This document shows, in pieces, positions 13,838 through 59,944 of a stretch of 64,000 nucleotides of DNA. Below the pieces are notes generated by a model. It saw only the letters and a program-made list of their open reading frames with translations. It did no database searches and was not told the origin of the DNA. Source of the stretch: Chamaelirium japonicum (lineage: Eukaryota > Streptophyta > Magnoliopsida > Liliales > Melanthiaceae); NCBI GenBank assembly GCA_947650365.1, contig OX393557.1, positions 48,143,979 to 48,207,978 on the forward strand. The letters run 5' to 3'. The position numbers were made by a program, and so were the translations under genes. Numbering within the stretch: position 1 is the stretch's first letter; each line of letters opens with the position of its first letter.

Positions 13838-13856
13838 CCCCCCCCCCCCCCCCCCC
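13838..13856. repeat. Poly-C run of 19
   Basis: A 19-base homopolymer inside the OBERON intron, followed by pyrimidine-rich sequence. Confidence 0.9.
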
Positions 13857-13973
13857 TCCATTTCCTTCTTTTCTCCCTCCATTTCTCTTGCAAACTCTAA
13901 TTCCATTGTGTGAGCATCATCGACGATGACGTAGATCTTGTTATTTCCCCGCAAAGAACAAGTGCAGGGGACG

Positions 13974-14607: not shown

Positions 14608-14678
14608 GTGACATTATTCCTGCATCAGTTGGTAGGTGACATTATTCCTGCATCAGTTGGTAGGTGACATTCTTCAGG
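14608..14678. repeat. 28-bp tandem duplication
   Basis: The 28-bp unit starting GTGACATTATTCCTGCATCA is present twice (14608-14635, 14636-14663) with a partial third copy, about 180 bp upstream of the acceptor of OBERON exon 2. Confidence 0.85.
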
Positions 14679-14857
14679 GGATTTGGAATTAAGTTTTATA
14701 TAGTGGTTTTGAAAATTGTCCAAGTGGTGGGCAAATATTAGAGTTGATAGGTGTCGTGTTTCACACCACCACTGATTCACACCCATGCACAAAAATGATC
14801 AGTTATGATATTGTCATATTATTTTGTTCTGAAATTCTTTATTCTGTCCCTCTATAG

Positions 14858-34661: not shown

Positions 34662-34946
34662 ATGGCAAGGGATCAGGGCTCGGGTTTCAATGGCGGGGGC
34701 GGGGCGGAGGAATCCGGTGGTGGTTGTGGGAGGTGCAGGGGTAGGCTTCTGGTTCTGTTGGTTTTGAGTGGTGTTATTGGCTCCGCGTGGTTGTTCGGCG
34801 GCGCCGTCGAAGACTTGGGCCTCTGGAGGGGGAGGGAGAAGGTTAAGGCCCTGTTGGAAGAGAAAGCCGAGGCTCTGCGGGAGCGGTTCAACCTCAGCCA
34901 GAGCCAGCTTCAAGCCCTGGCTTTGCTGTTCTCCTCATCGGGTCAG
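34662..34946 (+). CDS. AHK2: AHK2-type cytokinin receptor histidine kinase, exon 1
   Basis: Encodes residues 1-95, ending in phase 0 at SSGQ before GTATTG. The product belongs to the CHASE-domain sensor kinases that bind cytokinin at the endoplasmic reticulum/plasma membrane and start the AHP-ARR phosphorelay. A Gly-rich start is followed by a membrane segment at about 29-45 (LLVLLVLSGVIGSAWLF) and an amphipathic stretch REKVKALLEEKAEALRERFN. The exon aligns with exon 3 of the same gene: arginine-rich boundary, membrane segment ending WLF, R.K...L....A..L...FN.S, ALA.L, terminal Gln. It therefore looks like a diverged copy of the membrane-plus-CHASE-start module. AHK2 orthologues carry an extra N-terminal membrane region, which supports the subfamily call. 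Confidence 0.85.
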
Positions 34947-36211
34947 GTATTGCTTCCTTTTCGGAGCTCTGTTCGAGTATCGAGTTGGGTTGTTTGTTGA
35001 TTTGTGGCTGCGGCCGATGATATCAAAAGGTTTTGGTCCGTGCTCAAGATTTCTTGGAGTTTATGAGAATAAATTTTCTTTAAGAAAGGAAGACTGTGTT
35101 TTGTTTTTCGTTTTTTTTTTTCCTTTCTTCCCCCCCCCCCCCCCCCCCCCATCTCTTTTTTTATTTCAGTTGAGGGCAAGGGATCTATTTTTGGTCTGAT
35201 TTGATTGCAAACTTCAGTTATTGAAAGCCATGATCACTTGATTTTTCCTTGAATTGTTATCCCTAAGGTATATTAATAGCGAAAAGTCGAGATTTAGATC
35301 TTTGTTGGAATCTGAACTCATGAACAAAGTGGCACCCAAGACTGGCTTGAGCATGCCATGATTAACTCCTGCACATAGTGGGAGAGCTCGGGGAGAAGCT
35401 TTAGAATCCAACAAGAGGGGTTGATCATGAAATCAATGAACTCCCCGAGTTGCGTCCGTGGGTCTAAATATGATAGAATATAGCAACTTAGGAGGTAAGG
35501 GAAAACAAATTTGCAATTTAGCAATTGCCAGTAGAGTCAAAGCTCTCACCATCAAATAATAAAGCATTAAATTATACAACCAAAGCCATCATCTTGTATT
35601 TCCTAAATCCAGAGATGAAACCGCGAAGGATCAAGGATTTCACTTGCACAATCTACCACGGGCTCAAAAGAGTTTTCGGCTCCAATGAACTTCATTGCAC
35701 ATAATAATAAGCTTTTTCGGCAACTGAGAGTGAGGAAGAAGTTCTGAATTCTCTCTTTACTAAATTAGCTTTTGGCATTTAAGCTTGAGTGTTAGTGCTG
35801 TTGAAGTATGGAGCCTTAGTTCGAGGAGCCACATGAAGCCCAGCATGACCAAGGAGGAAGGAGCAAGAAGGTGGAAGGGACTCCAGTTATGAAACCTAGA
35901 GCAACAGGTGATGAGAACAAAATTGAATTGGTTGTGCACAACAGTGGGGATTTTGTGTGCACAATTTGGGCAGCAACAGAGCAGCAAGAAGCAGAGCGTG
36001 CGCATGCCCTGGGCACATCGTGCACACGGTTTTCGCACCGTGCGCATGCTTTGGACATCACATCACTTCAGCGGTTTTCTCGCATCAGAAAGACTGTGCG
36101 CATGCTTTCCCCAGCGTGCACGCGCTTCCTTCAGGCAAAATTATGTTTCTTTGCAACTCGACCTGCGTGGTGGAGTTGTACGATGTTTCTTTAGGAGATC
36201 CTACATAAGGA

Positions 36212-36676
36212 CTATGAAGCACCGACACTCTCGGGACCTCAACGTGTCCGTGTCCGACACGTGTCGGACACCGACACTCGTCCGACACTCTCCGACACGT
36301 GTCGGACACACCAGAAAACGTGTCTTCTATGAAGAAAGATTGTCCGACACGTGTCGGAGCGTATCGGATGCGTGTTAGAGCGTGTCGGATATTACCGGAG
36401 AGGTTTTTTTCTCATTTGAAAATGTTGGGGTTCTTGAGATTGCGAATCTTTCCATCAATGAACCGGATATGGAGGCCGTGGTCTTCACGTCGATGGTGAT
36501 GATGTGGTAACACTTGACGTTGGCCTTGATGGATGATGATTTTATGCGTGTTCTATTTGTTTTTTGTGTTTTGAAAGTTTGAAACTATACACTTGAATCA
36601 TTTATGATGTTTGTTGGAGACTTTTTTAGTTAACTATTAGCATTATGTTTGATTATAAATCATGATATAAGACTTG

Positions 36677-36716
<40 letters not shown>

Positions 36717-36811
36717 CAGCGTGTCCCCTAACGTGTCCGTGTCCTGGTTTTTTTGAAAAATATCGTGTCGGCGTGTCCGTGTCGTGTCGTGTCCGTGTCT
36801 GTGCTTCTTAG
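36212..36811. mobile_element. hAT-type MITE with exact 8-bp TSD
   Basis: Ends CTATGAAGCACCGACAC and (reverse complement) CTAAGAAGCACAGACAC, flanked by the exact duplication CATAAGGA at 36204-36211 and 36812-36819. The left side is an array of GACACGTGTC palindromes and CGTGTCCG units. An (AT)n run lies at about 36677-36711. The TIR consensus resembles that of 8960-10383. No coding capacity. Confidence 0.9.
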
Positions 36812-37804
36812 CATAAGGATTGCTAGGGTTTCCTTGGGGGATGAGATCGTGAAACTGTTTTCCTAAACACATGTACGAGTTTGTGAGATCTTAATCTGTT
36901 TTGCTCGTGGAACCCGTGGAAGCCCAACCCGTGCTTGTCTGTTCGGGTTGTTCGGGTCGCCCAATTTGCAAAATTATGGGCAGGTTGGGCGGGTTTCCCA
37001 ATTAGAAATACTTGTGAAATATATATAGATGGAAAAAAGTAACAAAATTAAGAAATTAAAACCATTTGATTGAAAATGAAGCATACTAAGTTAAGAAGTC
37101 AATGTGAAGCAGTCAGTGCACCGGGTGGGGATGCGCACAATTGTGCCGGTCGGAGGGGATGTAATCAGTAAACAATAATGTATGCACAAATGGGAAAAAG
37201 GGGAAGGGCCTCCATCGGGGTGCTCGACGTCTGCAATCAACGGAAAGTAGTCGACGATGCTTGTTGCGCACCGAGAGGAGAGGAATGGCCAAGTTGAGAG
37301 GGGAGAGACGATGGAAGATCTGATGTTGTAGGACGAAGGTTCCACAGACAACATCGGTTGTCATGGAAAGGACGCTTCATTGCTCTGCATCATCGGAGAG
37401 AGACGAGCGAGGGGCTAAGATCAGAACAGAGGGTGTTGGCCGTGTTGAGTTAGGGCTTCTCTTTGGCTATTGTGAATTTGTGATTATATTGATTATTGGA
37501 TTTGTCGAGCACTCGAGCGGGTATGACTGTGAGTCATGTGACTTTGTGTGGCCACTAATTGTTGTACCACTGTAGTGCAATGAGATTAGATTAGTGGATC
37601 CACTGTAGTGAGATGCAAGTATGCTGCTGTACTTGGGTTCCTCGGGTTGGGTAAGATCGGTGCCCAAACCAGTCCAAATTGAAGTCGAATTGATATTTTT
37701 TTGTCCAAACCTGTCCAAGTTTTTAACCAGCATTGGCCATGCTCGTGCATTATTCGGGTTGGGTTCGGGATGGGCGGATCGGACCCGCCCAAGTCCCACC
37801 CCTA

Positions 37805-39650
37805 TCACCAGCCACTCCTCTCGCAGACTCTCCTCCCCATGTAATTACTTATGCTCCATTGCTACTCCTTGATACTTTTGCGACTCTTGGTCCACTTACA
37901 CCTACGATTGCTCCATTCTTCTTGCACGTGGATCCTTACACTCGCCACTCTGAGCACCCTCGCCGCGTGTCTGATCGATAAAGGGACTATCCCGATTGCT
38001 ATGCATTCTTTGGAGTTGCCTCATATATACCTAGTTTTGGCTTTTCTTGCAGTTGTCCATGCTCACAAGGAGCCCCATTCATACAGTTTGTCTAGTTTCT
38101 ATAGTGACAATAGACAATTGACTGAGAAGCTCGATGCCTTTTACCAGACTCCCTGCATGGATCTCCCCAATCAGCTGTAAGTTGATTTTCAAGATTAAGA
38201 CTCGATCAGATAGCTCCATTGAGCGATACAAAGCTCGTCTCGTTGCGAGAGACTTTACTAAAGAGAATGGGGTTTACAGTTGACTATGACGAGACATTTG
38301 CTCCAGTTGTCCGGATGACCATCGTTTGTACACTACTCGCTGTGGTCGCTATTCGTGGATGACACTTCATCAGATGGACATGAATGATGCTTTTCTTCAT
38401 GGTGCTCTCTTTGAGGAGGTCTATATGGTGCCTCCTCTTGGACTCTCTGCTCTTCTCGGGCATATTTGTCGTCTATGCAGAGCCCTCTATGGGCTAAAGC
38501 AAACTCCTTGCACCGGTTTGAGTGATTTCACAGTGTTGTACTTGCTGCTGGCTTGGTCGAATGTCATACTGACTACGCCATATTCACCCACTCCTCACCT
38601 CAAGGTCTGGCAATATCACTACTCTATGTTGATGACATGATCATCACTAGCAATGATAGTGCCACCATTGTCTCACTTCAGTACCATCGTAAGAGTCAAT
38701 TTGAGATAAAGGATCTAGGCCCCTCTTCACTACTTTCTCGGTCTGGAGATTGTCCACTCAGTTTGAGGAATTCTCCTTTCCCAGAAGAAATACACTTGTG
38801 AGATACTGGCAGAGGTTGCTTTTACTTGTAGTCGCTTCGCCGACACTTCTTTCGAGTAGAATTTGCACCTTTCTGCTACGATGGTGAGTCACTACACAAT
38901 GCCTCCAGATATCGTTGACTCATCTGGATGCTTGTCTACCTCACTATCACTAGAACCGACATCGCTTATGCTGTTGACTCGTTCCTTATTTATGTCTTCC
39001 ACCTCTCCGCTAGTTCTACACGCCTACTCCGACCCAGATTATGGGGGGATGTTGACACTCGTCGTTCCACGAATGATTTCTTCGTGTTTTTTTTATGATT
39101 CACTCATCTTTTGGCATAGCAAGAAACATGACAGTTTCCAGGTCCATCGCTATGTCCGGATATCATGCCATGCTAACTACTACTGTGGAGATCGTATGAA
39201 TGCGATGCTTGGTGATGTCCTCTCCACACTGTTTTCGTTATACCGCGACAACAAAAGCACCGTTCAGATTGTCGGCAATTCAGTCTGCCAAGAACGCATG
39301 AAGCATATAGAAACTGATTGCCACTATACTCGCAAAGAATATATTGCTCTCACGATCTTTTTACCTTTCATCTCCTCCAAGGAACAGACTGCAAATTTTC
39401 TCTCAAATGCTTTTCCTGCTGTTACTTTTCAGTATTGTGTTCGCAAATTCTCGATGTTCGACCCACCTTGAGTTTGAGGCGGGGTGTTACTTGTAGTTCT
39501 ATATACATTGTATAGGATGTTTTGTCCCACATCGGATACTCAGTTCCGTCTCCTCATGTACTTTTATATATACATGGGCATAGCCCCCAATGAGAAGCAA
39601 CCCATTTGACTCTCCAAATCTGTGTCTGACAACAGCAAACAAATTCTGCA
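37805..39650 (+). pseudogene. 5'-truncated Ty1/copia pol remnant with a 3' LTR
   Basis: Broken reverse transcriptase and RNase H of the copia type in + orientation, across several frames. Visible pieces are LHQMDM.DAFLHG (38370-38405), the active-site YVDDMIIT (near 38622-38648), a decayed YSDPDYGG and CDN-like RNase H region (39030-39260), and ERMKHIE (39290). Gag, protease and integrase are absent; the 5' edge abuts a GC-rich repeat near 37800. A polypurine-like GAGGCGGGG precedes an LTR start TGTTACTTG at 39485, which ends near 39634-39650. Many stops and frameshifts mark it as old. The young copia element inserted 25-40 bp past its end. Confidence 0.75.
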
Positions 39651-39675
39651 TGTTACCTGCTTGATGCTTATTGAC

Positions 39676-39804
39676 TGTTAGGAGACGACGGCTAGGGTTT
39701 GGAGAGGAACAGAATGATTCCATTGAGGGACTCAAGCCCAATATATGTACAGTAAACCCGACCCGACTATACAGTAAACCCGACCCATTATATTTACATT
39801 AACA
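39676..39804 (-). repeat. 3' LTR of copia A1
   Basis: 129 bp, TGTTAGGAGACGACGGCTAG to ATTTACATTAACA as written on the + strand; no difference from the partner LTR was seen by eye. Confidence 0.95.
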
Positions 39805-39817
39805 CTCCCCCTCAAAC

Positions 39818-41893
39818 TCACGGTGGATCATGAACCGAGAGTTTGCCTAGAAAATGTCTGAAGCGAGCAGTCGTCAGTGGCTTCGTCAGAAAATCAGCAG
39901 TCTGCTCCGATGAGGGAATGAAAGGCAGGGAGATGATGTGTTCGATAAACGCCTGGCGAACATAATGGTAGTCAACTTCAATATGCTTTGTTCGCTCATG
40001 GAAGACCGGATTGCTAGCAATCTGAATAGCACTCCGGTTGTCACAGAAGAGAGGGGTCGGCCCGGATATCACCACTCCCAAGTCAAGCAGAAGACGTCGA
40101 AGCCAGACAATCTCGGCGGTGGTGGAAGCCATAGCCCTGTATTCGGCTTCGGTGCTGGAGCGAGCAACAGACTCCTGCTTCTTGCTGCGCCATGAAATCA
40201 GTGAGTCACCCAGAAACACACAGTATCCTGTAGTAGATCGACGAGTGTCTGCATCTCCTGCCCAATCTGCATCTGAGTAGGCGCGCAGTACCAACGGAGA
40301 GGTGGAGGGAAACAGGAGTGAACGGGTGATGATGCCCCGGAGGTAGCGGATAATCCGAAGAACAGCTGCATAGTGTACTGACCGGGGAGCCTGAACAAAC
40401 TGACTGACAATGCCAACAGCATGGGCAATGTCTGGCCGGGTCATGGTGAGATAGACAAGCATCCCAACCAACCTCTGGTAGCGGGAGACATCCTGGAGCG
40501 GCTCACCATCGGTAGCGAGAAGCTTCAAATTGAGCTCCATGGGTGTATCAGCAGTACGTGTGTCAGTAAGGGCAGTATCAGTAAGAATGTCGGAGATGTA
40601 CTTCTGCTGGGAGACCAACAGACCACGAGCTGACCTGGCAATCTCAAGGCCCAGAAAGTAGCGAAGAGAGCCCAGGTCTTTCATCTCAAACTGACTCTGG
40701 AGGTGCCGCTGGAGAGAGGCGATAGTGGCACTGTCATCCCCAGTGATGATCATATCATCCACATATAGGAGAAGGACTGCAATGCCCTGACTGGAGGAGC
40801 GAGTGAACAAGGCATAGTCGGAGTGACGCTCAACAAACCCGGCGGCCAGAACTGCACTGCGAAAGCGCTCAAACCAGGCACGAGGAGCCTGCTTGAGCCC
40901 ATAGATGGCCCGGCGCAACCGACACACGTGTCCTGGAGGAACTGAAGTGCCCGGAGGAGGAGCCATGTAGACTTCCTCGGAGAGATCACCGTGAAGAAAT
41001 GCATTGGTGACATCCATCTGATGGAGAGGCCACCCTCGAGCAGCTGCCACAGCTAAGAGGGTGCGCACAGTAGTCATCCGAGCAACTGGAGCAAACGTCT
41101 CCTCGTAGTCAATCCCATACTCCTGGGAGAAGCCACGAGCAACGAGGCGAGCCTTGTGCCGCTCAATGGATCCGTCAGGTCGAGTCTTGACCTTGAAGAT
41201 CCACTTGCAGCTAACAGGCACCACCCCGGGGGGACAAGGCACCAACTCCCAGGTCTGGGTCCGCTGAAAAGCCTCAAGCTCAACTGACATGGCCTGCCGC
41301 CACTCTGGATGTAATGCTGCCTCACGGTACGATTGGGGCTCCCGATGAGTGTGAAGAGCAGTAAGAAAGGCCTGAAAGGATGGTGAATAGGAGACACTGG
41401 CAGAGAAGCCAGAAGAGTCAGGAGAGTCAGTGGGAAAAGCAGAGTAACCAAACCTGTCAGGAGAGTAGTCGTATCTGGCAGGAGGGTGATGTTCGCGCGC
41501 TGGGTAACGCCGAACAGGAGCAGGATCCACGACCGGGGAGGAGGGAGCAGCAGCATCAGGCGAGGGAGTACCAGGGAGAACCGACTCTGGAGGGGGAGCT
41601 GCAGACCGACGTACATAGACACGAGTAATGGGTGGTGGTGGAGGTGGCGTGGGGGACGGAGGAGGTGGTGGTGGTGGTGGCGATGGATACTGAGGAGGTG
41701 GTGGTGGTGGTGTAGTAGGCGTGGATGGGGCAACAGAAACTGGGGGTAGAACAGGGATGTGGAGATGTGAGGAGGGCGAGGAGGATGACGAAGTAGGCAA
41801 GGAAAGATCCCGAGACTCAGGTGCAAAATACGGGACATCCTCAACAAAGGAGACGTGACGGGAGACACGGATCCGACGAGCTAAGGGATCATA
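39818..41893 (-). CDS. Copia A1 pol, reverse transcriptase-RNase H part
   Basis: Open frame downstream of the TGA at 41894-41896; the first ATG in it is at 41800, giving 660 residues. From that ATG: Pro-rich linker (about 20-60), reverse transcriptase from about 180 (W.LVPCPPG, CKWIFKVK, HQMDVTNAFLHG at 260-271, YGLKQAPRAWF, YVDD at 346-349), then RNase H with AYSDADWAG (Asp510), EAEYRA (about 551), CDNRSAI (Asp587) and HERTKHIEVD. It ends just before the polypurine tract. All catalytic residues look intact. In an intact element this part would be cleaved from a Gag-Pol polyprotein; here it is cut off by the upstream stop. Confidence 0.9.
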   Translation of the reverse strand, partial: YDPLARRIRVSRHVSFVEDVPYFAPESRDLSLPTSSSSSPSSHLHIPVLPPVSVAPSTPTTPPPPPPQYPSPPPPPPPPSPTPPPPPPITRVYVRRSAAPPPESVLPGTPSPDAAAPSSPVVDPAPVRRYPAREHHPPARYDYSPDRFGYSAFPTDSPDSSGFSASVSYSPSFQAFLTALHTHREPQSYREAALHPEWRQAMSVELEAFQRTQTWELVPCPPGVVPVSCKWIFKVKTRPDGSIERHKARLVARGFSQEYGIDYEETFAPVARMTTVRTLLAVAAARGWPLHQMDVTNAFLHGDLSEEVYMAPPPGTSVPPGHVCRLRRAIYGLKQAPRAWFERFRSAVLAAGFVERHSDYALFTRSSSQGIAVLLLYVDDMIITGDDSATIASLQRHLQSQFEMKDLGSLRYFLGLEIARSARGLLVSQQKYISDILTDTALTDTRTADTPMELNLKLLATDGEPLQDVSRYQRLVGMLVYLTMTRPDIAHAVGIVSQFVQAPRSVHYAAVLRIIRYLRGIITRSLLFPSTSPLVLRAYSDADWAGDADTRRSTTGYCVFLGDSLISWRSKKQESVARSSTEAEYRAMASTTAEIVWLRRLLLDLGVVISGPTPLFCDNRSAIQIASNPVFHERTKHIEVDYHYVRQAFIEHIISLPFIPSSEQTADFLTKPLTTARFRHFLGKLSVHDPP

Positions 41894-43441
41894 TCAGCGA
41901 TACCCCTTATGCTCACGACTGAGCCCCAAGTGAACACACCTAACAGACCTCGCAGAAAGTTTGGTGCGCTCATGGGGAGGAAGAAGAACGAAGCACGTGC
42001 AGCCAAACGTGCGAAGAAGAGAGTAGTCAGGTGGACTGGAGTGAAGGCGCTCGTGAGGGGTGGCACCGGACAGAGCAGACGACGGAGTGATATTTATGAG
42101 GTGGACAGCCGTCATGACAGCTTCAGCCCAGTAGGAGTGAGGGACAGACGCAGAGAGAAGCAAGGCTCGTGCAGTCTCAAGGACATGACGATGCTTGCGT
42201 TCGGCAACGCCGTTCTGCTCATGGGTGTGGGGACAGGACTGCTGGTGAAGAGTGCCGTGAGACTGAAGAATCTCACGCATCTCAGAGGAGAGATACTCCT
42301 TGGCACAATCAGACCGAAAAGTCTTGATTCGCCGACCAAACTGGGTGTGTATCATATTGGTGAATCGCCTAAAGATGTGAGGAATTTCAGACCGATGACG
42401 CATGAGATAGACCCAGGTGCACCTAGAATAGTCATCGATAAAACAAACATAATACATATAACCAGATAGAGATGCAACAGGAGCAGGACCCCAAATATCC
42501 GAATGAACTAAATCAAATAAAGCATTAGACTGGGAAGTACTAGCAGAAAAAGGAAGAGCTAGATGCTTTGCCAGTCGACAACCCGTACAGACAGATAGGG
42601 GGGAGAAAGACGCTCGACCCAAAGCGCCCGAGCGGAATACGCTTTTGAGTCGATCACTCGATATATGACCTAATCTTCTGTGCCACAGGTCGGCATCAGA
42701 GGTGACAGACATGACAGACGCAACTGAAGACACATGGAGATGGTCCAACTGGTAGAGTCCTCCTGCCCTACGGCCCAGCCCAATCCTCTGACCCGTCCGC
42801 GAATCCTGCACAACACAAACAGAAGGGGTGAAGGTGACAGTCAGGCCAGAGTCGCAAAGAGAACTGATGGAAATCAAATTAATATTAAGACGGGGGGCAT
42901 GATGGACATGGGATAGGGTCAGGCGACCAGAAGGGTCAGAGGTGGTGGTGATGGAGCCACATTGCGGAATAGGGACGAGAGTCCCATCCGCAGTGCGAAC
43001 CTCCTGGTGAGTGGTAGTGGGAGAACAGTCCGTGAGGACAGTGGAGTCAAAAGTAAGGTGACAGGAGGCACCCGAATCGAAGATCCATGGAGCAGTAGTA
43101 CCAGAGGTGGCAGACAAGCCGTGCGCAGTCGCGGAGCCGGTGGAGGCTATGTGGCGAAGAAGGAGCTCCTCGAGGCGCTGAAGGCGGTCCGGCTCAGACG
43201 GAGAAGGTGCTGTGGTAGCAGTGGGGAGCGTCGAGGCCTCTGCAGTAGCTGCTGCACCACCAAAGTGGCGGAAGGAAGACAAACCACGTCCTCGGCCCCG
43301 TCCACCTCGACCGCCGCGTCGATCGTCGCGAGAGGTCGAAGACCAGCGGGGGGATCTCTCATCCGGACCCCAGCGGGGGTTGCGTGGAGGACGTGTAGGG
43401 CACTCGCGCTTCATGTGGCCGGCTCCTTGCAGTAGTGACAA
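41894..43441 (-). pseudogene. Copia A1 pol, protease-integrase part, ending at an in-frame TGA
   Basis: Begins inside the zinc knuckle (GHMKREC) in a different frame from gag. Protease active site DSGAS is at about residues 122-126 of the open frame. Integrase shows the HHCC zinc site (HRRLGH, CTGC) and DDE residues (HSDIWGP, FRSDCAKEY, EQNGVAERK). A TGA at 41894-41896 falls between KGYR and YDPLARR, where the related copy at 60987-64000 has a cysteine codon, so it is a point nonsense change. The frame then continues open into reverse transcriptase. Confidence 0.9.
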
Positions 43442-44220
43442 AAAACAGCCTCATCGGAGAACCCGGCTGCCAGGACAGAGTCGGAGCTAGGAGCAAGTGG
43501 AGGAGGACGAGCGCCCTGAGTCTGAAGGCGGGTCTCCTCGTCGACCAAGGCGAGTAGGGCATCCTCGAGGCGAGGGAGGGGCTCACGGTGCAGGAGCTGG
43601 GCGGCTATGAGAGCAAAGTCTGGTCGAAGTGCTGCCAGGAACTGGTGCAGGTGGCCCTCGTCGAGGTAGCGCTGGAAGTCCCGGGAGCGGGGGCAGTCAC
43701 ACCGCTCCGGAATCAGTGAGTCCAGCTCATGCCAGTAGGCACTCATCTGACTGAAGAAGTCCTGAATGGTACGCTCCCCCTGACGGGCGGACTGCGAGTC
43801 GCAGATGAGCTGATGCCGGCGGGCGCCGCCGCGCGGGAGAAAACGGTCCCGGAGATACTCCCACATCGCGCGCGCAGTCGGAAGGCGGCCGATAGGAGCA
43901 AGGAGCGGACGAGCAACCGAGTCCAGGAGGTACGCCCGGATGGCCTGATCGTGGCGGCGCCACGTAAGAGCAGCAACGGTGACGGCCGTGGTAGCAGTCG
44001 CTGCAGAAGGTGCAGCACTGCTGGTGACAGAGGACGAGCCGGAGTAGTCAGTGGGAGGAGGATCCTCGCCGGTGATGTGACCCCACAGATCACGACTGGA
44101 GAGGGCGGCCTCGACGGTGAGGGACCAGTCAGGCCAGTCGCTGGCCGACGACAACTGAAACGCGACCGCCTTTAGCGGTGGAGAGATCGCAACGACAGAC
44201 GGGACGGCTGGAGAGGCCAT
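43411..44220 (-). pseudogene. Copia A1 gag, ending prematurely in the zinc knuckle
   Basis: ATG at 44220, 269 residues. Copia-type capsid region with DWPDWSLTVEAAL, LWGHI, LTWRRHDQAIRAYLLDSV, MWEYLRDRF and FFSQMSAYWHELDSLIP. The last residues CHYCKEP are the first half of a CX2CX4HX4C zinc knuckle; the frame then stops, while the second half (GHMKREC) is in another frame, consistent with loss of one base. The relative at 46203-51176 keeps both halves in one frame (though with its own stop), so the frame change is private to this copy rather than a family recoding site. Confidence 0.88.
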
Positions 44221-44730
44221 GGAGGATGATGTAGGGTGTCAGGGGGTGTCGGAGGGGGGCTGTAGGGTGGCGGAGGAGGTAGGCGGGGGCTGTAGGGGGC
44301 TCGGGAGGGGGTCGGGAGTGATGGAGGGGGGTTCGGGAGGCCGGCAGGGGCTGTAGGGGGTCGGGGCTGTAGGGGGGGGGCCGGGAGTGCAGTAGATGGG
44401 CGTAGGAGGGGGCGGGGGCTGTAGGTGATCGGTGGAAGGGGGGGCGGGGTTGGTAGAGGGGTCGGGAGAGAGGGTTGCAGCCGACGGTGGTGTAGGTGGG
44501 CGTAGGAGGGGGCGGGGGCTGTAGGTGATCGGTGGAAGGGGGGGGGGGCGTGGTAGGTAGAGGGGTCGGGAGAGGGGGTTGCAGCCGGCGGTGGTGTAGA
44601 GGAGTCGGGAGGGGGGTGCAGCTGGCGGAGGAGGTGCAGCCGGCGGAGGAGGTGCAGCCGGCGGGAAGGATCATCCGGAGGAGATGCAGCCGGCGGGAAG
44701 GAGGGAGACCGGAGGAGGTGCAGCCGTCGC

Positions 44731-44748
44731 CCTAGAGCTCTGATACCA
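44731..44748 (-). other. Primer-binding site of copia A1
   Basis: Directly adjacent to the 5' LTR: TGGTATCAGAGC on the minus strand, complementary to the 3' end of plant initiator tRNA-Met. Confidence 0.92.
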
Positions 44749-44877
44749 TGTTAGGAGACGACGGCTAGGGTTTGGAGAGGAACAGAATGATTCCATTGAG
44801 GGACTCAAGCCCAATATATGTACAGTAAACCCGACCCGACTATACAGTAAACCCGACCCATTATATTTACATTAACA
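44749..44877 (-). repeat. 5' LTR of copia A1
   Basis: 129 bp, identical by eye to 39676-39804. The intervening 44221-44730 is a G-rich (C-rich on the element strand) leader with an internal repeat of about 50 bp around GTAGGAGGGGGCGGGGGCTG (44403 and 44502). Confidence 0.95.
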
Positions 44878-45407
44878 TTGACGATCTATACAGAGAACTT
44901 GTGATTTTATTTTCCTCAGACCTAATGCATCAATCCCCTCTTTATTGTTATATAAATAAGCATTTCTACTGTTTTGGATTGGTATCAATATAATATAAAT
45001 CTTGTTGAGCTGGATATTGTGATTTAGCTACATGCAAGTATGCAACTAGGAACTAGCCAGTGAATATGATATGAAATTATGGAATGGTGCTTTATTTCAA
45101 CTATTTAGTTTATAATTTGTGCCACATAGAAGAATGCAATTCCTAAATCAAATCTGCCTTCTACCTTTTTCGTCTATGGGTATTATATGTGAGTTAACTA
45201 TGTTCTCTCATTGACGAAAGTCAAATACTAAAGTTGTTTGTGAGCACCCTCGAATCAGAGAGAAGAGCCATGTGTTTCTGGATGACTTGAGACTTTATCT
45301 TTTTATGCAATTGCCAATTACTTGTTGAATCTTGTTAGGAGTTTGCAAACGTTTTGATCAAGTGTTAGTTGTCAATCCCAACTTTGAACTTCTCATTCGT
45401 GTTGCAG

Positions 45408-45683
45408 AGAACAATCTCTAAAAGTATGGAGAAATATGCATCTGACAGGCCACTTAGTCATAGCCTTTCCCATGCTCTAGAAGTACTGTGTGTTAAGAGG
45501 GCGCATTCCCAAAGACAACAAGGGGTAGCAGATAAAATGATCTTTCAGGATCAATGCCCAGTTCAACGCCAATACATTTCAGGGAAGTCAAGGCATTCAC
45601 CACTTAAGGATGAACATATGCCAGAGATCTGCCCACAAGATATCATGCCTTCTATGATGAGCAATGATATTATTCTTCTAGAG
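45408..45683 (+). CDS. AHK2: AHK2-type cytokinin receptor, exon 2 (CHASE-like remnant)
   Basis: Encodes residues 96-187, phase 0 at both ends (acceptor GTTGCAG, donor GAG then GTATGT). It starts RTISKSMEKYASDRPLSHSL, which resembles the CHASE continuation found in canonical receptors directly after the equivalent intron (R-T-F-S-x-Y then an E/D-RPL-x-x-G-V-A-Y block). CVKRAHSQRQQG matches the following SER..FERQ.G block, and DQCPVQ the later PV..EY region. The remainder (KDEHMPEICPQDIMPSMMSNDIILLE) is not recognisable. So exons 1 and 2 together look like a diverged, shortened copy of the start of the CHASE module. It probably does not form a full ligand pocket. Confidence 0.75.
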
Positions 45684-45697
45684 GTATGTAACCTGTG

Positions 45698-45885
45698 AAA
45701 AATCTTGTGATTCGTTGCAAAAAGATATGCAATAAAAGCAATGTACCAACTACACCTATTAGAGAGTCTGCCTGCAAAAAGATGCTCGTGGAAATCTTGT
45801 GATTCGTGCAAAAAGATATGCAATAAAAGCAATGCACCAACTACACCTACTAGAGAGTCTACCTGCAAATGGATGCCGAAAAATA
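45698..45885. repeat. 93-bp tandem duplication
   Basis: Two copies of a unit starting AAATCTTGTGATTCG and containing AAAAAGATATGCAATAAAAG, with few differences, 15 bp after the donor of intron 2. Confidence 0.85.
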
Positions 45886-46202
45886 GTCGATAAAATATGC
45901 AATGCAAGGGCTCCCGAGGAGTTCACTTGAAGCTGGACAGCCCAATGGATTTTTTCAGGTATTCAAACCTGACAACATCCAAGGCTTTTGTGAATATGTT
46001 GGCCAACTGAAAATGAGCAACTAAATGCCCATGGACAATGGGTAATATTGTATCATCTGGAACCCAGAATATTGCTTGCAAGTAGTCGTTGTGAAGCTCT
46101 CGCTAGCGCGTACACAACCATTTTGTAAAATATTTTCCTTTTTTGTTTAAGTTTTCCAAAGATTATAAGAAATTAAAATAGGTAGCCAAGGGCAAAAAGT
46201 CC

Positions 46203-46363
46203 TGTTACGAAGAGAGGGAGAGAGCGACTAGGGTTTTGGGGAGAAAACTCCTTGTATTATCTCGTTGTATATCCCATTGCATAAGATTACCTCTCCTTAT
46301 ATAGAGAGAGAACGCACACCATTACATTACCACAACTAAGGTGGGATTAATAGTAACTCTACA
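46203..46363 (-). repeat. Left LTR of the chimeric element (non-family-A)
   Basis: 161 bp, TG...CA ends, followed on the + strand by TCTAATACCCTCCGTCAAAC (polypurine tract of a minus-strand element). Apart from the first bases it does not resemble the right LTR. Confidence 0.75.
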
Positions 46364-46789
46364 TCTAATACCCTCCGTCAAACTGATGTAAGGTATAAAC
46401 CGACATCAGTTTGCTTAATTAAAGAAAGAAAAAAAGGAAACAAAAATTACATTAAATATCCCATTTTTATGCTGTAAAGTAAAAAATAGTGCCAGGGCGA
46501 CCTGCAAGCAAGTCTTCCTGGAAATCCGATTGACCTGCAAGCAGGACAACCGGGGGAACCCGGCCAACCTGTAAGCTGGTCAACTAGGGGAACTGGTAAT
46601 GCTCACTAAGGATCGGAGCGGAGGAAGCCGACGATGATGGAAGCCGACAATAAAGGAGGCCGAAAGGGGAGAGATCGGCTAAGAAAAAAGGTGTTGATGC
46701 GTGAGACCTCATAGGAGGCAAGCACTCGGCCTAAGCAATCACTTCACACCTCCTAGAAGATTTCAATCACCACAAACAAAGAAGAGAAA

Positions 46790-47830
46790 ATAGATAGGGT
46801 CACATGACCAAGGAAAGGGAGAAGATCCGAAAGCCGGCACAAGTGTGCTCGGAAAGAGAGATGATTGGAAGGCCGACACAAGTGTGACCGGAGAGAGGAT
46901 CCAAGAGAAAAATAGAGCCGTACCTCTGATAGGGTTGCACAAGCGGGAATAGATGATCCAAGAGTCGGCACAAGTTTGACTGGATAGAGGAGATCCGAGA
47001 GCCCGTGCGACCAGAGAGAAAGAGGATAAGACGACGGCTAAGGAAAGAGATGCCAGAGGGAGAGAAGCTCGATCAGCAGGAGGGAGAAGATCTCCATCGG
47101 CAAGAGAAGAAGATCGGACGGACCAGTAGAGCGTGAGGGCGTAGATCGGCCGGCAGCGCGCAAAGCGCAGATAGGCCGATAGAGTGTAGGGCGCATGCAA
47201 GCCGATAGAGCGCAAGGCGCAGGCAGACCGGTAAAGTGCAGAGCGCAGGGCACGAGTGCAGGCGCTGGCGGACCGGTAGAGCACAGGGCGTAGGGCATTA
47301 GTGCAGGCGCAGGCAGATCGGTAGAGCGCAAGGTGAACCAGTAAAGTGCAGGGCGCAGGGCACAAGTACAGGCGCAGGCGGACCGGTAGAGCGCAAGGGT
47401 GTAGGTCGGCCAGTAGAGCGCAAAGCGTAGGTAGGTCGAACCGGAAGAGTGCCAACAGAGCGCAAGGCACGAGTGCAGGGGCAGGCGAACCGACAAAGCG
47501 CAAGGGTGTAGGGCGCAAATGCAGGGCGCAGGTGTACGTACAAAGTGCAAGGGCACAGGGCGCGAGTGCAGGATGCAGACGTACCAAAAAAAAGCTCAAG
47601 GGTGCATGGCGCAGTCGAACTGACAAAGTGCAAGGGCGTAAGTGCAGGGTGCAGGCGTACCGACAAGAGCAAGGACGTAGAGCGCGAGTGCAGGGCGCAG
47701 TCGAACCAACAGAGCGCAAGGGCGTAGGGCACGAGTGGAGACGCAGACAGGTTGACAGAGTGCAAGGGCGCAAGCAGGTCGGCAGAGAGCAAGGCATGTA
47801 CAGGCCAACAAGACGCAGGATGACACAAAT
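46790..47830. repeat. Degenerate minisatellites, main unit about 45 bp
   Basis: 47150-47830 repeats variants of a unit built from GACCGGTAGAGCGCAAGG, GCGCAGGGCACGAGTGCAGG and GCGCAGGCG more than ten times. 46790-46990 repeats GGCACAAGTGTG-type units. Cys/Leu/Ala/Pro-rich frames on the minus strand arise from it and are not a protein family. Confidence 0.8.
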
Positions 47831-49180
47831 CCTTAATAAAAGAACCTGCGATTTAGTGGAGAAGAATGGGACATCATTAACAAAAGAGACATGGCGAGAG
47901 ACATAAATCCGGCGAGCCAAGGGATCATAGCATCGATAACCTTTGTGCTTCAAACTGAGGCCCAAGTGAACATACTTGACAGACCTGACATAAAGTTTGT
48001 TATGCTCATGAGGAGGTAGGAGGATGAAATACGTACACCCAAAGGTACGAAGGAGAGAATTGTCGGGTGGACTAGAGTAGATACTTGTTCGGAGTAGTGC
48101 TAAACAGAGCAAAGGACGAAGTGATATTAATGAAGTGAGCAACAGTCATAATAGCTTCAGCCCAGTAAGAGTAAGAAACTGAAGCAGAGAGAAGGAAATA
48201 TCGTGCTGTCTCGAGGACATGATGATGCTTGCGTTCAGCGACTCCGTTTTACTCATGGGTGTGGGGACATGACTGTTGGTGAATAGTGTTGTGAGATTGA
48301 AGGATCTCATGCTCACGCATCTCGGAGGGGAGATTTTCCTTGGCACAATCAGACTGACAGGGTTTGAAATCTTGGTTGATACCGGTACATACCGGTTTTG
48401 TCTAGTTCGAGACCGGTACTACATTCGATCATGATACCTGGCCCATACCGGTACGTATTTATCTATTTAGGCCGGTACCGACCGGTACGGCCATTTCTTA
48501 ATTTTTTTTATATTTTTTTAAAGTTTTTTTCCTCAATCGGTATTGGTTCGTATCGACCGGTATCTGCATACCGGCCGATACATACCGGTTCGAGGCCGAC
48601 CAATACCGTGACTGATATCGTGATTTTAAACCTTGGTCTTGATGCACCGATCGAATTGGATGTGAAGCATAATGGTGAATATTCGATAAATATGTGGGAT
48701 TTTAGACCGGTTACACATATGATAAACCCATGTGCATCTCGAGTAATCATCTATAAAATTAACATGGTACATAAAACTCAAGAGAGAAATAACAGGAGCA
48801 GGACCCCAAATATCGGAATGCACGAACTCAAAAAGGGCGACAGATCGGGAAGCACTAGCAGAAAATGGAAGAGCTAAATGCTTTGCCAATCTACAACCCG
48901 TACAGACAGAGAGGGGGGAAGGACACACGACCCAAAGCGTTCGAATAGAACACTCTTTTGAGTCGATCACTAGACAAATGATATAACCTTTTGTGACACA
49001 GGACGACATCAGAGGTAACTGACATGGCGGACGCAACAGACGAAGGGGAAACATGAAGATGGTCCAGCTGGTAAAGTCTTCCTGCTCTACGGCCCATCCC
49101 AATCCTCTAACCCGTCTGCGAATCTGCACAACACAAGCAGAAGACGTGAGGTAACAGTCAGTCCAGAGTCGCAAAGAGAA
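47830..49180 (-). pseudogene. Family-A integrase remnant, split by an insertion
   Basis: Minus strand, broken frames: LGRRAG.LYQLDHLH, the CTGCRLAKHLALPFSAS block, HSDIWGPAPV, FIDDYSRCTWVY, and after the insertion SSPPDNSLLRTFGCTYF, VHLGLS.KHKGYRCYDPLARR. In A1 the corresponding sequence is continuous. The insertion at 48358-48632 plus several frameshifts inactivate it. Confidence 0.85.
48358..48632. mobile_element. 275-bp inverted-repeat insertion rich in ACCGGTAC
   Basis: Interrupts the integrase remnant relative to A1. The ends GGTTTGAAATC and (reverse complement) GGTTTAAAATC pair. The interior is filled with TACCGGTAC and ATACCGGTTC modules, like the palindrome-filled hAT-type MITEs elsewhere here, but no 8-bp target duplication was readable. 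Confidence 0.6.
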
Positions 49181-49249
49181 TTAACAGAAATTAGATTAAT
49201 GTTTAGGAGAGGGGCATGATGGATAAAGAGGACCAGGCGACCAGTGGGA

Positions 49250-50500
49250 TCTAAGGTACGAGAGTCCCATTCACAGTGCGAACCTTTAGGTGGGTGGGAG
49301 AATGAGTACTGTCGGTGAGAATAGTAATAACAGGTGAGGTAATAGGAGGCACCATAATCGAAGATCCATGTGGCAGTAGTACCAGAGGTAGCAGATAAGC
49401 CATGAGCAGGCGAAGAGCCGGCGGAAGAGAGGTGGCGAAGGAGTTCCTCGAGGCGCTGAAGACGATTCGGCTCAGGCGGAGTCGGTGCAGTGGTAGCGAC
49501 AGGAGATGCCAGAGTCGCTGTAGTAGCAGTTGCAGTGCCACCAAACTGGCGGAAGGGGGGTTGACCACGTCCACGGCCCCGTCTCCCTCGACCTTCTCGT
49601 CGGTCGTTACGAGTAGCAAGAGTCCAACGTGAGTCCCGCTCGTCAGGTCCTTAGCAGGAGTTGCGAGGAGGATGTGTGGGACATTCACGCTTCATGTGAC
49701 CGAACTCCTTGCATTAGTAACAGAAAATAGACCCGTTAGGTGAGTTGACTGCCAGGGCGCTGTCTGGTCCTGGAGTGAGTGGAGGAGGATGAGTATCCCG
49801 AGTCTAAAGACGAGTCTCCATGTCGATCATGGCTAGTAAGGCATCCTCTAGCCGAGGTAGTAGTTCACGGTGAAGGAGCTGAGCAGCAATGAGAGCAAAT
49901 TTCGGCCGAAGCACAACCAAGAACTGGTGGAGGTGGCCCTCGTTGAGGTTGTGCTAGAAGTCCCCGAAACGAGGGCAAGCACATCGCTCGGGGATTATAG
50001 AGTCCAGCTTGTGCCAGTAGGCACTCATCAGACTAAAGAAGTCCTTAATCGTATGCTCCCCCTGATGAGCGGATTGGGAGTCGCAAATCAGCTGATACCA
50101 GCGAGCACCCATGTGAGGGGAATCGGTCCCGGAGATACTCCCACATCGCGCACATCGTAAGGAGGCGACCGATAGATGTAAGAAGTGGATGAACAATAGA
50201 ATCCAGGAGATAGGCTTGGATGGCTTGATCGTGGCGACGCCACGTAAGGGCGGCCGTGACAGCAGCAGCAACAGGCGACACAATGCTAGCAGCGGTGCTA
50301 CTGATGACTGAGGAAGAGCCGGTGGATGCATCTGGAGCTACGTTTTCATCGGTGATGTGATCCCAAAGTTCACGACTGGAGAGGGCGGCCTCAACGATGA
50401 GTGACCAGTTTGGCCAGTTGCTGGTCGAGGTCAACTACAAGGGGACAGCCTTCAGTGGTGGGGAGATCGCGACGACGGAAGGCACAGTAGCAGACGTCAT
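49250..50500 (-). pseudogene. Family-A gag and protease remnant
   Basis: Minus strand. An ATG at 50498-50500 begins a gag related to A1 (SVVAISPPLKAV), closed after about 22 codons by TAG, then NWPNWSLIVEAALSSRELWDHIT, TWRRHDQAIQAYLLDSI, MWEYLRDRFPS and FFSLMSAYWHKLDSIIP in shifting frames. The zinc knuckle region near 49700 is continuous but contains a stop. The Arg/Gly-rich tail and protease region (49250-49690) are frameshifted. Confidence 0.8.
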
Positions 50501-51036
50501 GGAGAAGGATCAAGTGATGGTAGGGAGATGGAGTATGGTGGTCGAGATCGGGGTGAGGTCGGGAGGGGAGGGGTATCGAAGGAGAGGTGGTCAGGATCTG
50601 GGTGGTAAGGGAGTTGATCGGGATCAGGGTGGGGTCTGGAGGAGGGGGGTATCATGGTGGGGTCGGGAGGAGAGGGGTATCGGGGGGGGGGGGGGGGGGG
50701 GATTGTCGGGGTCTGTAGGAGGGGGGTATCGAAGGGGGGTGGTCGGGATCGGGGTGGTGAGGGGGGGTGATCGGGATCAGGTGGGGTCAGGAGGAGGGGG
50801 GTATTGGGGGGAGGGGGGATCGGGGTGGGGTCGGAAGGAGGGGGGTGGGGTCAGAATCGGGGTGGTGAAGGAGGGGGTGGGGTGCCGGATGGGGTGAGGT
50901 CGGGGGATCGGAGAGGGAAACCATAGGGGGGATTGGAGGAGGTGCTGGTGCTAGTGAGGATGATCGGAGGAGGGGGCGAGCAGCCGTCGTCGTCGCCTCG
51001 CGTCGCAGCGGGAAAAATCCTAGATCTCTGACACCA

Positions 51037-51176
51037 TGTTAGGAGATGACGGTTAGGATTTGGAGAGAATGGAATAACTCTTCATTAGGGGACTAAGCCC
51101 AATATATAAGTACAATATTGCATAATGAACCCGACCCAACTATCCATAAAACCCGACCCATCTTTTTACATTAACA
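51037..51176 (-). repeat. Right LTR of the chimeric element (family A)
   Basis: 140 bp, TGTTAGGAGATGACGGTTAG to CATTAACA; clearly homologous to the 129-bp A1 LTR but diverged by substitutions and small indels. 50500-51000, next to it, is a G-rich leader with a poly-G run at about 50682-50700. Confidence 0.9.
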
Positions 51177-51696
51177 AATACAAACATTAGAGTCAAGGCA
51201 AACTACTCTATTATTGATATCTTGGTAATTTTTTTAAGAAATGCTATTTGCTTATGCATGTGCATAGTTATGCAAGCTCCGAGTACTAGTAGTGTAGGCT
51301 ATTATGAAGAATCACCTGAATTAGTAGGATATAAGAAACTTGTCCTAGAGAATTGTGTTTTATTTTCCTTAAAATCTAGTTCAACACGTCTTTAAGTGGG
51401 TTCTTTGCCCCAAGTTTATCCCGCTCAATTTTGAACCTACCAGACTACAGGTAGCTGAAGAATTTTTTGAGACTTTTTTTTTTAGGGGTGTAGAAATGCT
51501 CTAAGCACATAATAGCTGGTATCATACATATTCTCATCAACAAACACATCGTATACATTTTTCTGTCTATCAATTCCAACCCCAGGCTGTTAATAAAGAA
51601 TGTCATGAACTTCTTTCAAATATTCGGAGTTGGTAAAATTCAAGGTAAACAATATAGATTTTACAGTGATTATAGAAGAATCTTCCTCTACCCATC

Positions 51697-52023
51697 TGTG
51701 ACAACCAAGATCCAATAGGCCATTAGCCAAGAGCCAAGAATCCTGAGGCGGGGATGCCAAGATGGATGAGGTGAGGTGTACAAGGCCACGAGTTAGCCCC
51801 ACATCGCTTGGAGAGAAGGAGATCCTGAGCTACTTATATAATTTTCCCTCCTAAACATAGAAGACGCGTTTTAAAACCGTGCGCCGCTACAGATTTCGTA
51901 AGAACTCTGTAGTTAAGCGTGCTCGGACGAGAGTAGTACTAGGATGGGTGGCCACCCTGGGAAGTTCTCGTGCGGGCACGGGCAAAGCGGACAAAATCTT
52001 GTGTGTTTGGGGCGGATGTTACA
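51697..52023 (+). repeat. Cassandra 5' LTR
   Basis: 327 bp. The 5S-like core is at about 51902-51975 (AGTTAAGCGTGCTCGGACGA, GAGTAGTACTAGGATGGGTG, CTGGGAAGTTCTCGTG), covering the polymerase III internal control region (A box, intermediate element, C box). It has two GAGGT units where the 3' LTR has about five. Confidence 0.93.
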
Positions 52024-52103
52024 AAATGGTATCAGAGCCAGTTCTCCTCGCAATGGGGGGGTCTAACCCTACACGAGGACGTGCAGCCCTAAGGGGGGTG
52101 GAT

Positions 52104-52450
52104 TGTGACGACCAAGATCCAATAGGCCAATAGCCAAGAGCCACGACTCCTGAGGCGGGAATGCCAAGATGGATGAGATGAGGTGAGGTGAGGTGAGGTG
52201 AGGTGTACAAGACCATGAGTTAGCCCCACATCGCCTGGAGAGAAGGAGATCCTGAGCTACTTATATAGCTTCCCCTCCCAAACATAGAAGACGCGTTTTA
52301 AAACCGTGCGCCGCTACAGATTTCGTAAGAACTCTGTAGTTAAGCGTGCTCGGACGAGAGTAGTACTAGGATGGGTGACCACCCTGGGAGGTTCTCGTGC
52401 GGGCACAGGCAAAGCGGACAATATCTTGTGTGTTTGGGGCGGATGTTACA
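52104..52450 (+). repeat. Cassandra 3' LTR
   Basis: 347 bp; longer than the 5' LTR because of an expanded GAGGT pentanucleotide run (about 52176-52204). Otherwise close, with scattered substitutions (for example GGTGACC versus GGTGGCC in the C-box region). Confidence 0.93.
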
Positions 52451-52966
52451 CCATCCATCTATTAGCCGTGTCTTTAAAGTTTCCAAAATCCATGTGTTTT
52501 ATAGAAATAACTGTTTCAAAGAAAGTTCACTGATGTTAAACCAAAGATTAAATTGTCTATAATGATGAAGAAGAGTGCTTTTACTTACTAGATTTCCCAT
52601 ATTCATGCCAACGTGGTTGAAATCTGTTATGACTATTTTCTTCTGTATGTACATGTACAAGAAATACTGTTCTGATCTACCTCACAGTTGGTCAATCTGA
52701 CAATCAATGAGATCTGATTGCAATGCCCCAGCTTGACTCTTAAAGACATCTGGCTCCAATTTTTTCATCCATGTTCATGCAGCATGACTCTACACATTAA
52801 TGCAGTATTCTAGGCCAGTACTTTTAAATAGATTTTGATAGTATGATGCTTATTACAAATGCCTTTTGTCGTTTATGTATAGGAGTGTCAAACCGTTTCA
52901 TGCACAAGAGAATCAGTAGGTCTCAAACAAGATTATCTTAAAAGTATTCCTATGATTTTGCCGCAG

Positions 52967-53344
52967 ATAAGTTGGTTGATCATAGTGGGAATAATGGTCT
53001 TCTGTAAAGGTTGTACTCTTCGTGGCAGATTATGGCAGTCCTCAAATCAGCAAGATCAACAGAAGCAACAGCAATACCAAACACTGAATTCAAAGGCTGG
53101 TGGGAGATGGAGGAAGAAATTATTACTTCTGGGGGTCTTACTTGGGCTCTTGGTGTCTGTCTGGTTATTTTTTAGCATGAATGCAAATCTCAATGCAAGG
53201 AGAAAGGATACTCTTGAAAATATGTGTGATGAAAGAGCTCGAATGTTGCAGGATCAGTTCAACGTGAGTATGAACCATGTGAATGCATTGGCCATCCTGG
53301 TCTCTACTTTTCACCATGGGAAGCATCCTTCTGCCATCGATCAA
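52967..53344 (+). CDS. AHK2: AHK2-type cytokinin receptor, exon 3 (membrane segments and CHASE start)
   Basis: Encodes residues 188-313, phase 0 at both ends (acceptor CCGCAG, donor CAA then GTATGT). A first hydrophobic segment, [13 protein letters not shown] (188-200), is followed by a Gln-rich loop, the signature GGRWRKK, a second membrane segment (238-256, [18 protein letters not shown]) and the start of [45 protein letters not shown] and GKHPSAIDQ. The block from MCDERA to SAIDQ is nearly invariant in plant cytokinin receptors. The Gln-rich loop plus GGRWRKK arrangement fits AHK2 rather than AHK3/AHK4. The next exon, expected to start with an RTFxxY motif, is not found before 64000. Confidence 0.93.
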
Positions 53345-58827: not shown

Positions 58828-59944
58828 CCCTCTCACTGTGCCAGAACCTCTTCCGACGTCAGGTGTCCCTCCTTCCTCTGTCCCTCTTGCTTCTTCTGCT
58901 GACATACCTATTGCTCTTCGCAAGGGTAAGCGTACTTGTGTCACTAATCACCCTTTGGCGAGTGTTGTCTCTTATCAGGGCCTTTCCCATGCATATCATG
59001 CTTATCTAACTGCCACAGACTCTATTCGCATTCCTCGTTCTACTACTGAGGCTCTACGTGATCCTGAATGGGTCAAAGCTATGGATGCTGAGATGTCTGC
59101 CTTGCGCCAGAATGGAACTTGGGCTTTGGTTCCTTTTCCCCCTGGGAAGCGTACGGTTGGCTGCAAGTGGGTCTACACTGTAAAGTATCGTGCTGATGGT
59201 TCTCTTGAACGTTACAAAGCCAGACTTGTAGCTCGAGGTTTTACGCAGACTGCTGCTGAGTTTGGTGCTACCATTGCTCCTGTTGCCAAGTTGACCAGTG
59301 TTCGTTTACTGCTTTCTCTTGCTGCTCGCCACTCTTGGCCTCTTCATCAGCTTGATATCAAGAATGCTTTTCTTTATGGTAATCTGGCTGAGGAGATATA
59401 TATGGACCCCCCTCCAGGGTACCGTCTTCAGGGGGAGTATTCGGGCCGGGTTTGTCGCTTGCTCAAGTCACTTTACGGCTTGAAGCAGTCTCCCAGGGCT
59501 TGGTTTGAGCGTTTTAGTACAGTGATTCTTCGCATCGGCTTTACTCGATGTTATGCTGATCCAACCTGCTTTATTAAGATCACTGCTGAGGGCCGACGTG
59601 CTATTGTTCTGGTATATGTTGATGATATTATTCTTACAGGGGATGATGCAGAAGGGATTACTGCTGTCAAGAATACTCTTCAGGCTGCCTTCGAAGTAAA
59701 GGATCTTGGTCCTCCTCGTTACTTTCTGGGGATTGAAATAGCTCGTTCTCGTCAGGGTATCTCTATCTCTCAGCGAAAGTATACACTTGATCTTCTGCAT
59801 GATACTGGTCTTCTTGGGTGTCGACCGGCTCGTACACCGATGGATGCTAATCATCGTCTACATGCAGAATCCGGCGATCTTCTTTCTGATCCCAGTTCCT
59901 ATCAGCGTCTTGTTGGTCGTTTGATTTATCTAACTCACACTTGA
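58745..59944 (+). pseudogene. Copia B reverse transcriptase, ending at TGA
   Basis: Reading frame shifted relative to integrase. Conserved blocks: W.LVPFPPGKRTVGCKWVY, YKARLVARGF, HQLDIKNAFLYG, YGLKQSPRAWFERF, active site YVDDIILTGDD, FEVKDLGPPRYFLGIE and YQRLVGRLIYLTHT. TGA at 59942-59944 lies directly before PDISFAV, where copia elements normally have Arg, consistent with CGA to TGA. Confidence 0.9.

Follow-up and report, generated by a model that had tools for sequence, protein, structure and literature searches.

The window analysed here, a 64,000-nucleotide stretch of Chamaelirium japonicum DNA (G000:C9:48143979-48207978, from a genome of 1.52 Gb), carries on its + strand the beginning of an AHK2-like cytokinin receptor gene, coding exons 1 to 3. 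We consider it very probable that exons 1 and 2 of this gene arose by an old tandem duplication, in frame and within the gene, of the exons that encode the membrane/dimerization segment and the first part of the CHASE domain, and that the copy has since decayed. The initial annotation had proposed that exons 1 and 2 are such a copy of the exon 3-4 unit, and the proposal is supported by the features of an internal tandem exon duplication: the copies are colinear, both introns fall at the same place and in the same phase, and the nearest relative of exon 2 in the genome lies in the same gene. The duplication itself is evident from comparison of the sequences; the in-frame splicing and lumenal topology of the copy are inferred. 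The exons and introns concerned are as follows.

34662..34946, + strand: exon 1, 95 amino acids, with the N-terminus, a membrane segment and a stalk; apparently copied from exon 3 (second half)
34947..45407, + strand: intron 1, phase 0 after Gln, enlarged by retroelements
45408..45683, + strand: exon 2, 92 amino acids, phase 0 at both ends; apparently a copy of exon 4, the first CHASE exon, in full length but decayed
45684..52882, + strand: intron 2, phase 0; position and phase match those of the intron after exon 4
52883..53344, + strand: exon 3, 154 amino acids, with an extra membrane segment, a linker, the canonical membrane segment and the stalk

The gene is recognized as a cytokinin receptor by a sensory stalk and CHASE exons and by the histidine kinase part that follows the second of the flanking membrane segments. 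Exon 3 matches the AHK4 structure (PDB 3t4j) at E 4.6e-18, its second half corresponding to the sensory module's membrane segment and stalk, and the canonical stalk at 53198-53344 is identical to Arabidopsis AHK4 at 37 of 49 residues. Exons 4 to 6 were located downstream of the window: exon 4, the first CHASE exon (93 amino acids, phase 0 at both ends), occupies C9:48210553-48210831, 2.6 kb past the window end, and exon 5 begins EDREN. Further exons at C9 ~48220252-48221691, found with a typed-in AHK4 query, encode the second flanking membrane segment, HisKA (ATVSHEIRTPMNG) and the beginning of the ATPase domain, so that the gene spans ~43 kb from exon 1 to the last located piece. Exons 1 to 3 are all open and their introns are phase 0 with GT/AG ends. 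Exon 1 ends SSSGQ/gt and exon 3 ends PSAIDQ/gt, both in phase 0, which agrees with the earlier claim of a final Gln directly before a phase-0 intron in each; intron 1 has the position and phase of the intron after exon 3, which starts at 53345. Exon 2 starts ag/RT and contains DRPL, also as annotated, and every other sequence element that had been listed for these exons is present.

Exon 2 and exon 4 align along their whole lengths. Their global alignment contains one 1-residue gap and the ends coincide, and the local alignment begins at residue 1 of both and stops three residues short of both ends. The raw score of exon 2 is 120 with its own exon 4, 102 with exon 4 of an AHK3-like gene of the same genome and 63 with AHK4 (the typed AHK4 sequence was verified as identical to PDB 3t4j_A), and none of these scores was reached in 5000 shuffles. 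Control comparisons of exon 2 stayed at chance level, whether with the later half of the AHK4 CHASE domain (1432 of 5000 shuffles reaching the score), with exon 1 (3250 of 5000) or with exons 5 and 6 (3236 of 5000). In an alignment made blind to the junctions, the last residues of exons 1 and 3 fall together, as do the first residues of exons 2 and 4, and exon 1 has a 9-residue gap immediately before the junction. The DNA of exons 2 and 4 also retains a trace of similarity, a stretch of 20 bases that is 90% identical (E 0.007) and keeps the register of the protein alignment. The annotation had likened exon 2 to the beginning of a CHASE exon; the similarity is real and its extent was put too small, as the whole first CHASE exon is matched. 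The accompanying term "pseudo-CHASE module" holds in that the first CHASE-coding exon appears to have been copied, and goes too far in that it is only this exon, which Pfam does not recognize.

The length of exon 2 (92 amino acids) fits the long exon 4 of AHK2- and AHK3-type genes (93 and 94) and not that of AHK4 (79), and exon 2 is thus of the long AHK2/AHK3 form. The shared insert of 13-14 residues points to an exon of AHK2/AHK3 type as the source of the copy; if AHK4 has lost the insert, then it tells nothing about timing.

Exon 1 aligns with the second half of exon 3, as had been claimed, at 26 of 70 positions identical and 46 of 70 positive. The raw score of 113 was reached by none of 5000 shuffles, nor was the score of 68 obtained from the stalks only, with the membrane segments removed, and the spacing of the stalk is kept between the two exons in a gapless block of 37 residues. 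The first half of exon 3, used as a control, matched exon 1 at chance level (825 of 5000 shuffles). Among just the three receptor stalk exons of this genome that the comparison covers, exon 1 scores highest with its own exon 3 (113), followed by the AHK3-like (99) and AHK4-like (61) exons, each with 0 of 5000 shuffles.

Searches that were not directed at these pairs lead to the same exons. A search of the whole genome with exon 2 scored 8 candidates and gave five matches at E<=10: in order, exon 2 itself, exon 4 of the same gene (E 1.8e-6, 33% identity over residues 4-88 of the 92), the AHK3-like exon 4 on C3 and again on C248 (9.1e-4 each), and a chance match (1.36). With the AHK4 sensory domain as a tblastn query, the window gives exon 3 (2e-19) and exon 2 (0.001) before chance at 1.2. 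Over 1258 open reading frames of the window, an AHK2/3/4 profile, two of whose three rows were typed-in sequences, finds exon 3 (7e-38), exon 2 (1.1e-10) and exon 1 (1.7e-6), with the next match at 1.8; AHK4 alone finds exon 3 (3e-20), exon 2 (0.0054) and exon 1 (0.089), with the next at 1.5. A canonical profile built from the gene's own exons 3-4, the AHK3-like gene and the AHK4 PDB chain, which therefore matches exon 3 by construction, recovers exon 2 (6.5e-13) and exon 1 (9.3e-8) from 1586 six-frame open reading frames of the window, the next match being at 2.5. Exons 1 and 2, when joined and compared with 177,635 PDB sequences, retrieve the AHK4 sensory domain first (E 0.014, next 0.59), with a colinear match over residues 55-166. 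A viral contig collection returned two 12-residue matches (L001, L002), which we take as chance, and a genome contig collection returned none.

Two paralogous receptors in the same genome provide a comparison. An AHK3-like gene at C3:6764316-6765937 has a homologous stalk exon and first CHASE exon (94 amino acids) and shares the phase-0 boundaries of exon 4 with the window gene, and an AHK4-like gene at C10:64224275-64225366 likewise has a homologous stalk exon and first CHASE exon. Both differ from the window gene in that a profile search of their flanks, 20 kb for the AHK3-like and 30 kb for the AHK4-like gene, found canonical exons only and no extra copies. The end of the AHK4-like stalk exon and the first CHASE exon (C10:64224275-64225108) contain frame breaks, which are either sequence errors or marks of a damaged copy. 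Because of the breaks in and around those exons the intron phases of this gene are unreadable, and for the same reason it was omitted from the tree and the profile and replaced by the Arabidopsis AHK4 PDB chain. The AHK3-like exons occur twice with equal scores, at C3:6763339-6766620, on a contig of chromosome size, and at C248:288605-291886, on a small contig, which probably reflects a second haplotype retained in the assembly. Like exon 3, the AHK3-like stalk exon has in its open frame (C3, L014 ~2110-2612) one additional membrane-like segment upstream, and this segment may therefore predate the duplication.

Hydropathy places three membrane segments before the CHASE domain, the number that marks the AHK2 clade, and leaves a predicted lumenal loop of ~160 amino acids. 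The segments and stalks are these.

34746..34802, + strand: core of the first membrane segment, amino acids 29-47, placed by hydropathy and alignment; counterpart of 53120-53176
34797..34946, + strand: putative copied stalk, amino acids 46-95; counterpart of the dimerization helix, 9 residues shorter ahead of the final Gln
52946..53002, + strand: core of the second membrane segment, amino acids 209-227 of the predicted spliced product, placed by hydropathy
53120..53176, + strand: core of the third, canonical membrane segment, amino acids 267-285 of the predicted spliced product, just before the sensory stalk, placed by hydropathy
53168..53344, + strand: canonical stalk, putative template of the exon 1 copy

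Both stalks retain the sequon FN(L/V)S (Asn77 and Asn314), and the copied stalk has Leu at the place of the stalk Cys of canonical receptors. In AHK4 a disulfide joins the N-terminal helix to a strand near the C-terminus, according to the available text of PMC3491891, and the 265 residues of the AHK4 sequence hold two Cys only, at 142 and 389, of which the former corresponds to the Leu in exon 1 and the latter lies in the part that was not copied. The same text names Asp262, Thr278, Leu284, Thr286 and Tyr250 (AHK4 numbering) as pocket residues. Because exon 2 ends opposite Glu260, the first four of these lie outside it, and Tyr250 is opposite Ser; the hormone pocket, as described by these five residues, is not found in exon 2. 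With the main pocket residues and the stalk Cys missing, the copy probably does not bind hormone.

Continuation of the copy beyond exon 2 was considered and rejected. The first half of exon 3 compares at chance level with exons 5 and 6 (1659 of 5000 shuffles) and with the CHASE domain and following membrane segment of AHK2 and AHK4 (1120 and 1640 of 3000, on partly typed-in sequences), and is without similarity to the CHASE segment that follows exon 4; the visible copied unit therefore ends with exon 2. Six-frame searches of the window found no remnant in intron 2 of the remaining CHASE domain or of the kinase start, receiver domains not having been searched for.

Several results weigh against a duplication of this kind. 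At the DNA level exons 1 and 3 have no similarity (best E 0.99), and exon 1 lacks two things that exon 3 has, the extra membrane segment and 9 residues ahead of the junction. When the PDB is searched with just the exon-1 stalk, AHK4 ranks third at E 1.2, in the company of coiled coils and other proteins; a search with just exon 2 does not retrieve it at E<=10, and Pfam gives no CHASE domain (PF03924) in either exon or in the 341 amino acids of the three exons joined, for exon 2 not even at E<=10. With AHK4 as the only query, the E value of exon 1 (0.089) is above the inclusion threshold. At their 3′ ends exons 2 and 4 agree only if the alignment is carried without gaps across three dissimilar residues (LLE versus SGK), since the local alignment stops before them. 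A tree of four sequences rejects no quartet (approximately unbiased test values of 0.23, 0.77 and 0.23), and it contains a very long branch (1.66). Finally, in a typed-in sequence of Arabidopsis AHK2, the equivalent of exon 2 gives no signal against CHASE (1682 of 3000 shuffles). In the same sequence the equivalent of exon 1 matches its own stalk weakly (3 of 3000 shuffles), and exons 1-2 of the window gene match AHK2 residues 1-160 weakly (14 of 3000).

Chance, or a bias of composition shared by helices and membrane segments, could be suspected because a PDB search with just the exon-1 stalk returns designed coiled coils as well. We regard the probability of this as negligible: no shuffle in 5000 reached the score of exon 2, or of exon 1 without its membrane segment, the whole-genome search (with exon 2) and the six-frame searches (for exons 1 and 2) pick the same exons, and the introns agree at both junctions. 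The exons might also be leftovers of a decayed upstream copy that lie outside the receptor transcript, the real start being elsewhere. In favour of this, decay is strong, with exon 2 matching AHK4 at 22 of 79 columns and exon 1 matching exon 3 at the 26 of 70 given above. A stop-free frame is by itself weak evidence of selection: in simulations with substitutions only, neutral decay to 37% identity left 81 codons free of stops in 54 of 1000 runs. Yet both exons are open, in phase and bounded by GT/AG ends, and comparable N-termini are reported for related receptors: the full-length cDNA of apple AHK2 predicts an extra membrane segment and a loop of ~140 amino acids (available text of PMC5611679), close in kind to the ~160 predicted here, and potato StHK2 is reported in the available part of PMC6054150 to have three upstream helices, the same number as predicted here. 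We regard it as highly improbable that exons 1 and 2 are relics outside the receptor transcript.

A further history is harder to separate from an internal duplication. The first two coding exons of a truncated tandem gene of the AHK2/3 type, located upstream, could have been spliced onto the intact gene. Such a fusion predicts the same colinear exons, the same phases and the same nearest relative, and nothing in the window separates the two histories. It requires an additional gene-level step, however, and queries with the later CHASE exons, the second membrane segment and HisKA gave a best E of 0.09 in the window, off-strand, with receiver domains not searched for; the AHK4 sensory domain matches exons 3 and 2 only. 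Relics of a second receptor could have been erased by decay, and we judge fusion to be unlikely without dismissing it.

For the internal duplication we propose the following course. In an ancestral AHK2- or AHK2/3-type gene, the membrane/stalk part of exon 3 and the whole of exon 4 would have been duplicated head to tail, and because the introns involved are of phase 0 the copied exons would splice in frame onto the original exon 3. Hydropathy suggests that the copied unit consists of one membrane pass and a lumenal piece, which would fit before the extra segment of exon 3 and leave the orientation of the receptor unchanged. The copy would then have decayed, keeping its membrane segment, stalk spacing and sequon and losing the stalk cysteine, and the later CHASE exons, which bear most of the hormone pocket, would either never have been copied or have been lost since. 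In the present-day protein the copy would make up the additional lumenal loop that receptors of the AHK2 clade are described as having. Dating the duplication by tree failed, as all three quartets stand. In a six-sequence tree with two typed-in rows, the AHK3-like gene groups with AHK3 (95) and the window gene does not, its own placement having support of 59 and 40.

As for function, the membrane/stalk half appears slightly better kept (again 26 of 70 with exon 3) than exon 2 (22 of 79 with AHK4, 33% with its own exon 4), which would fit an accessory role in dimerization or anchoring without hormone binding, the difference being small. That the copy now serves as an accessory membrane/dimerization element that binds no cytokinin is a guess, and we hold it tentatively. 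The wider proposition, that the AHK2 loop is the relic of a second sensor from a duplication in early seed plants or angiosperms, still acting as a hormone-blind lumenal module for regulation or dimerization that distinguishes AHK2 from AHK3 and AHK4, is more doubtful still. If the duplication is accepted, it would explain the extra AHK2 loop and would recast it as a decayed second sensor, expected to have a membrane-adjacent stalk, perhaps pairing with its twin, and to lack a hormone pocket. The intron-based test of origin used here can be applied to any set of angiosperm genomes.

The introns between these exons contain several mobile elements. Intron 1 holds, on the - strand at 39676-44877, a retroelement judged by reading to be of Copia type, and because its 129-bp ends are identical (129/129) the insertion is recent. 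A decayed relative of this element lies in intron 2 at 48104-50510, 74-87% alike in several blocks, mostly at a spacing of ~6.3 kb. Also in intron 2, at 51697-52450, are two direct repeats, each with a 5S rRNA match (51864-51982 and 52291-52405), and these resemble short retroelements of the Cassandra type; a third 5S rRNA match lies on the - strand at 27635-27736. Intron 3 carries another Copia-type element (56983-58824 and ~59306-59395) with integrase, gag-pre-integrase and a stretch that reads like reverse transcriptase. Upstream of the receptor, reading frames at 6286-15498 match PHD_Oberon (5.8e-43) and the Oberon coiled coil (2.8e-53), and probably represent an OBERON-like gene with large introns.

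The layout of the window gene is that of known AHK2-type receptors. According to the available text of PMC5611679 and PMC6054150, the three receptor clades are alike in cytoplasmic layout and unlike in N-terminal membrane layout: apple MdCHK2, the cDNA of which was cloned in full length, has the predicted extra membrane segment and lumenal loop, MdCHK3 and MdCHK4 are described in the former as being without the extra loop, and exon numbers are 13 in MdCHK2 versus 10 and 11 in the other two. The window gene shares with AHK2, MdCHK2 and the three-helix StHK2 the arrangement of stalk, CHASE domain and kinase, the three upstream membrane segments and the extra lumenal loop; it differs in that the published loop has no stated origin in the available parts of those papers, whereas here the loop exons can be followed back to exons 3-4 of the gene itself. 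The splits between AHK4 and AHK2-3 and between AHK2 and AHK3 have been tied to the zeta and epsilon genome duplications (PMC5975490, from the part available), and the exon duplication may help to order the events around them. Among the matches listed in a search of open-licence full-text literature, we found no demonstration of duplicated AHK2 sensor exons. The same idea appears in a single sentence, as preliminary, in PMC10779265 (2023), the available text of which gives no alignment, intron evidence or duplication mechanism and reports AlphaFold models that did not show it. What the window gene adds is thus not a new kind of receptor; it is exon-level evidence for an origin of the AHK2 loop that had been hinted at in print.

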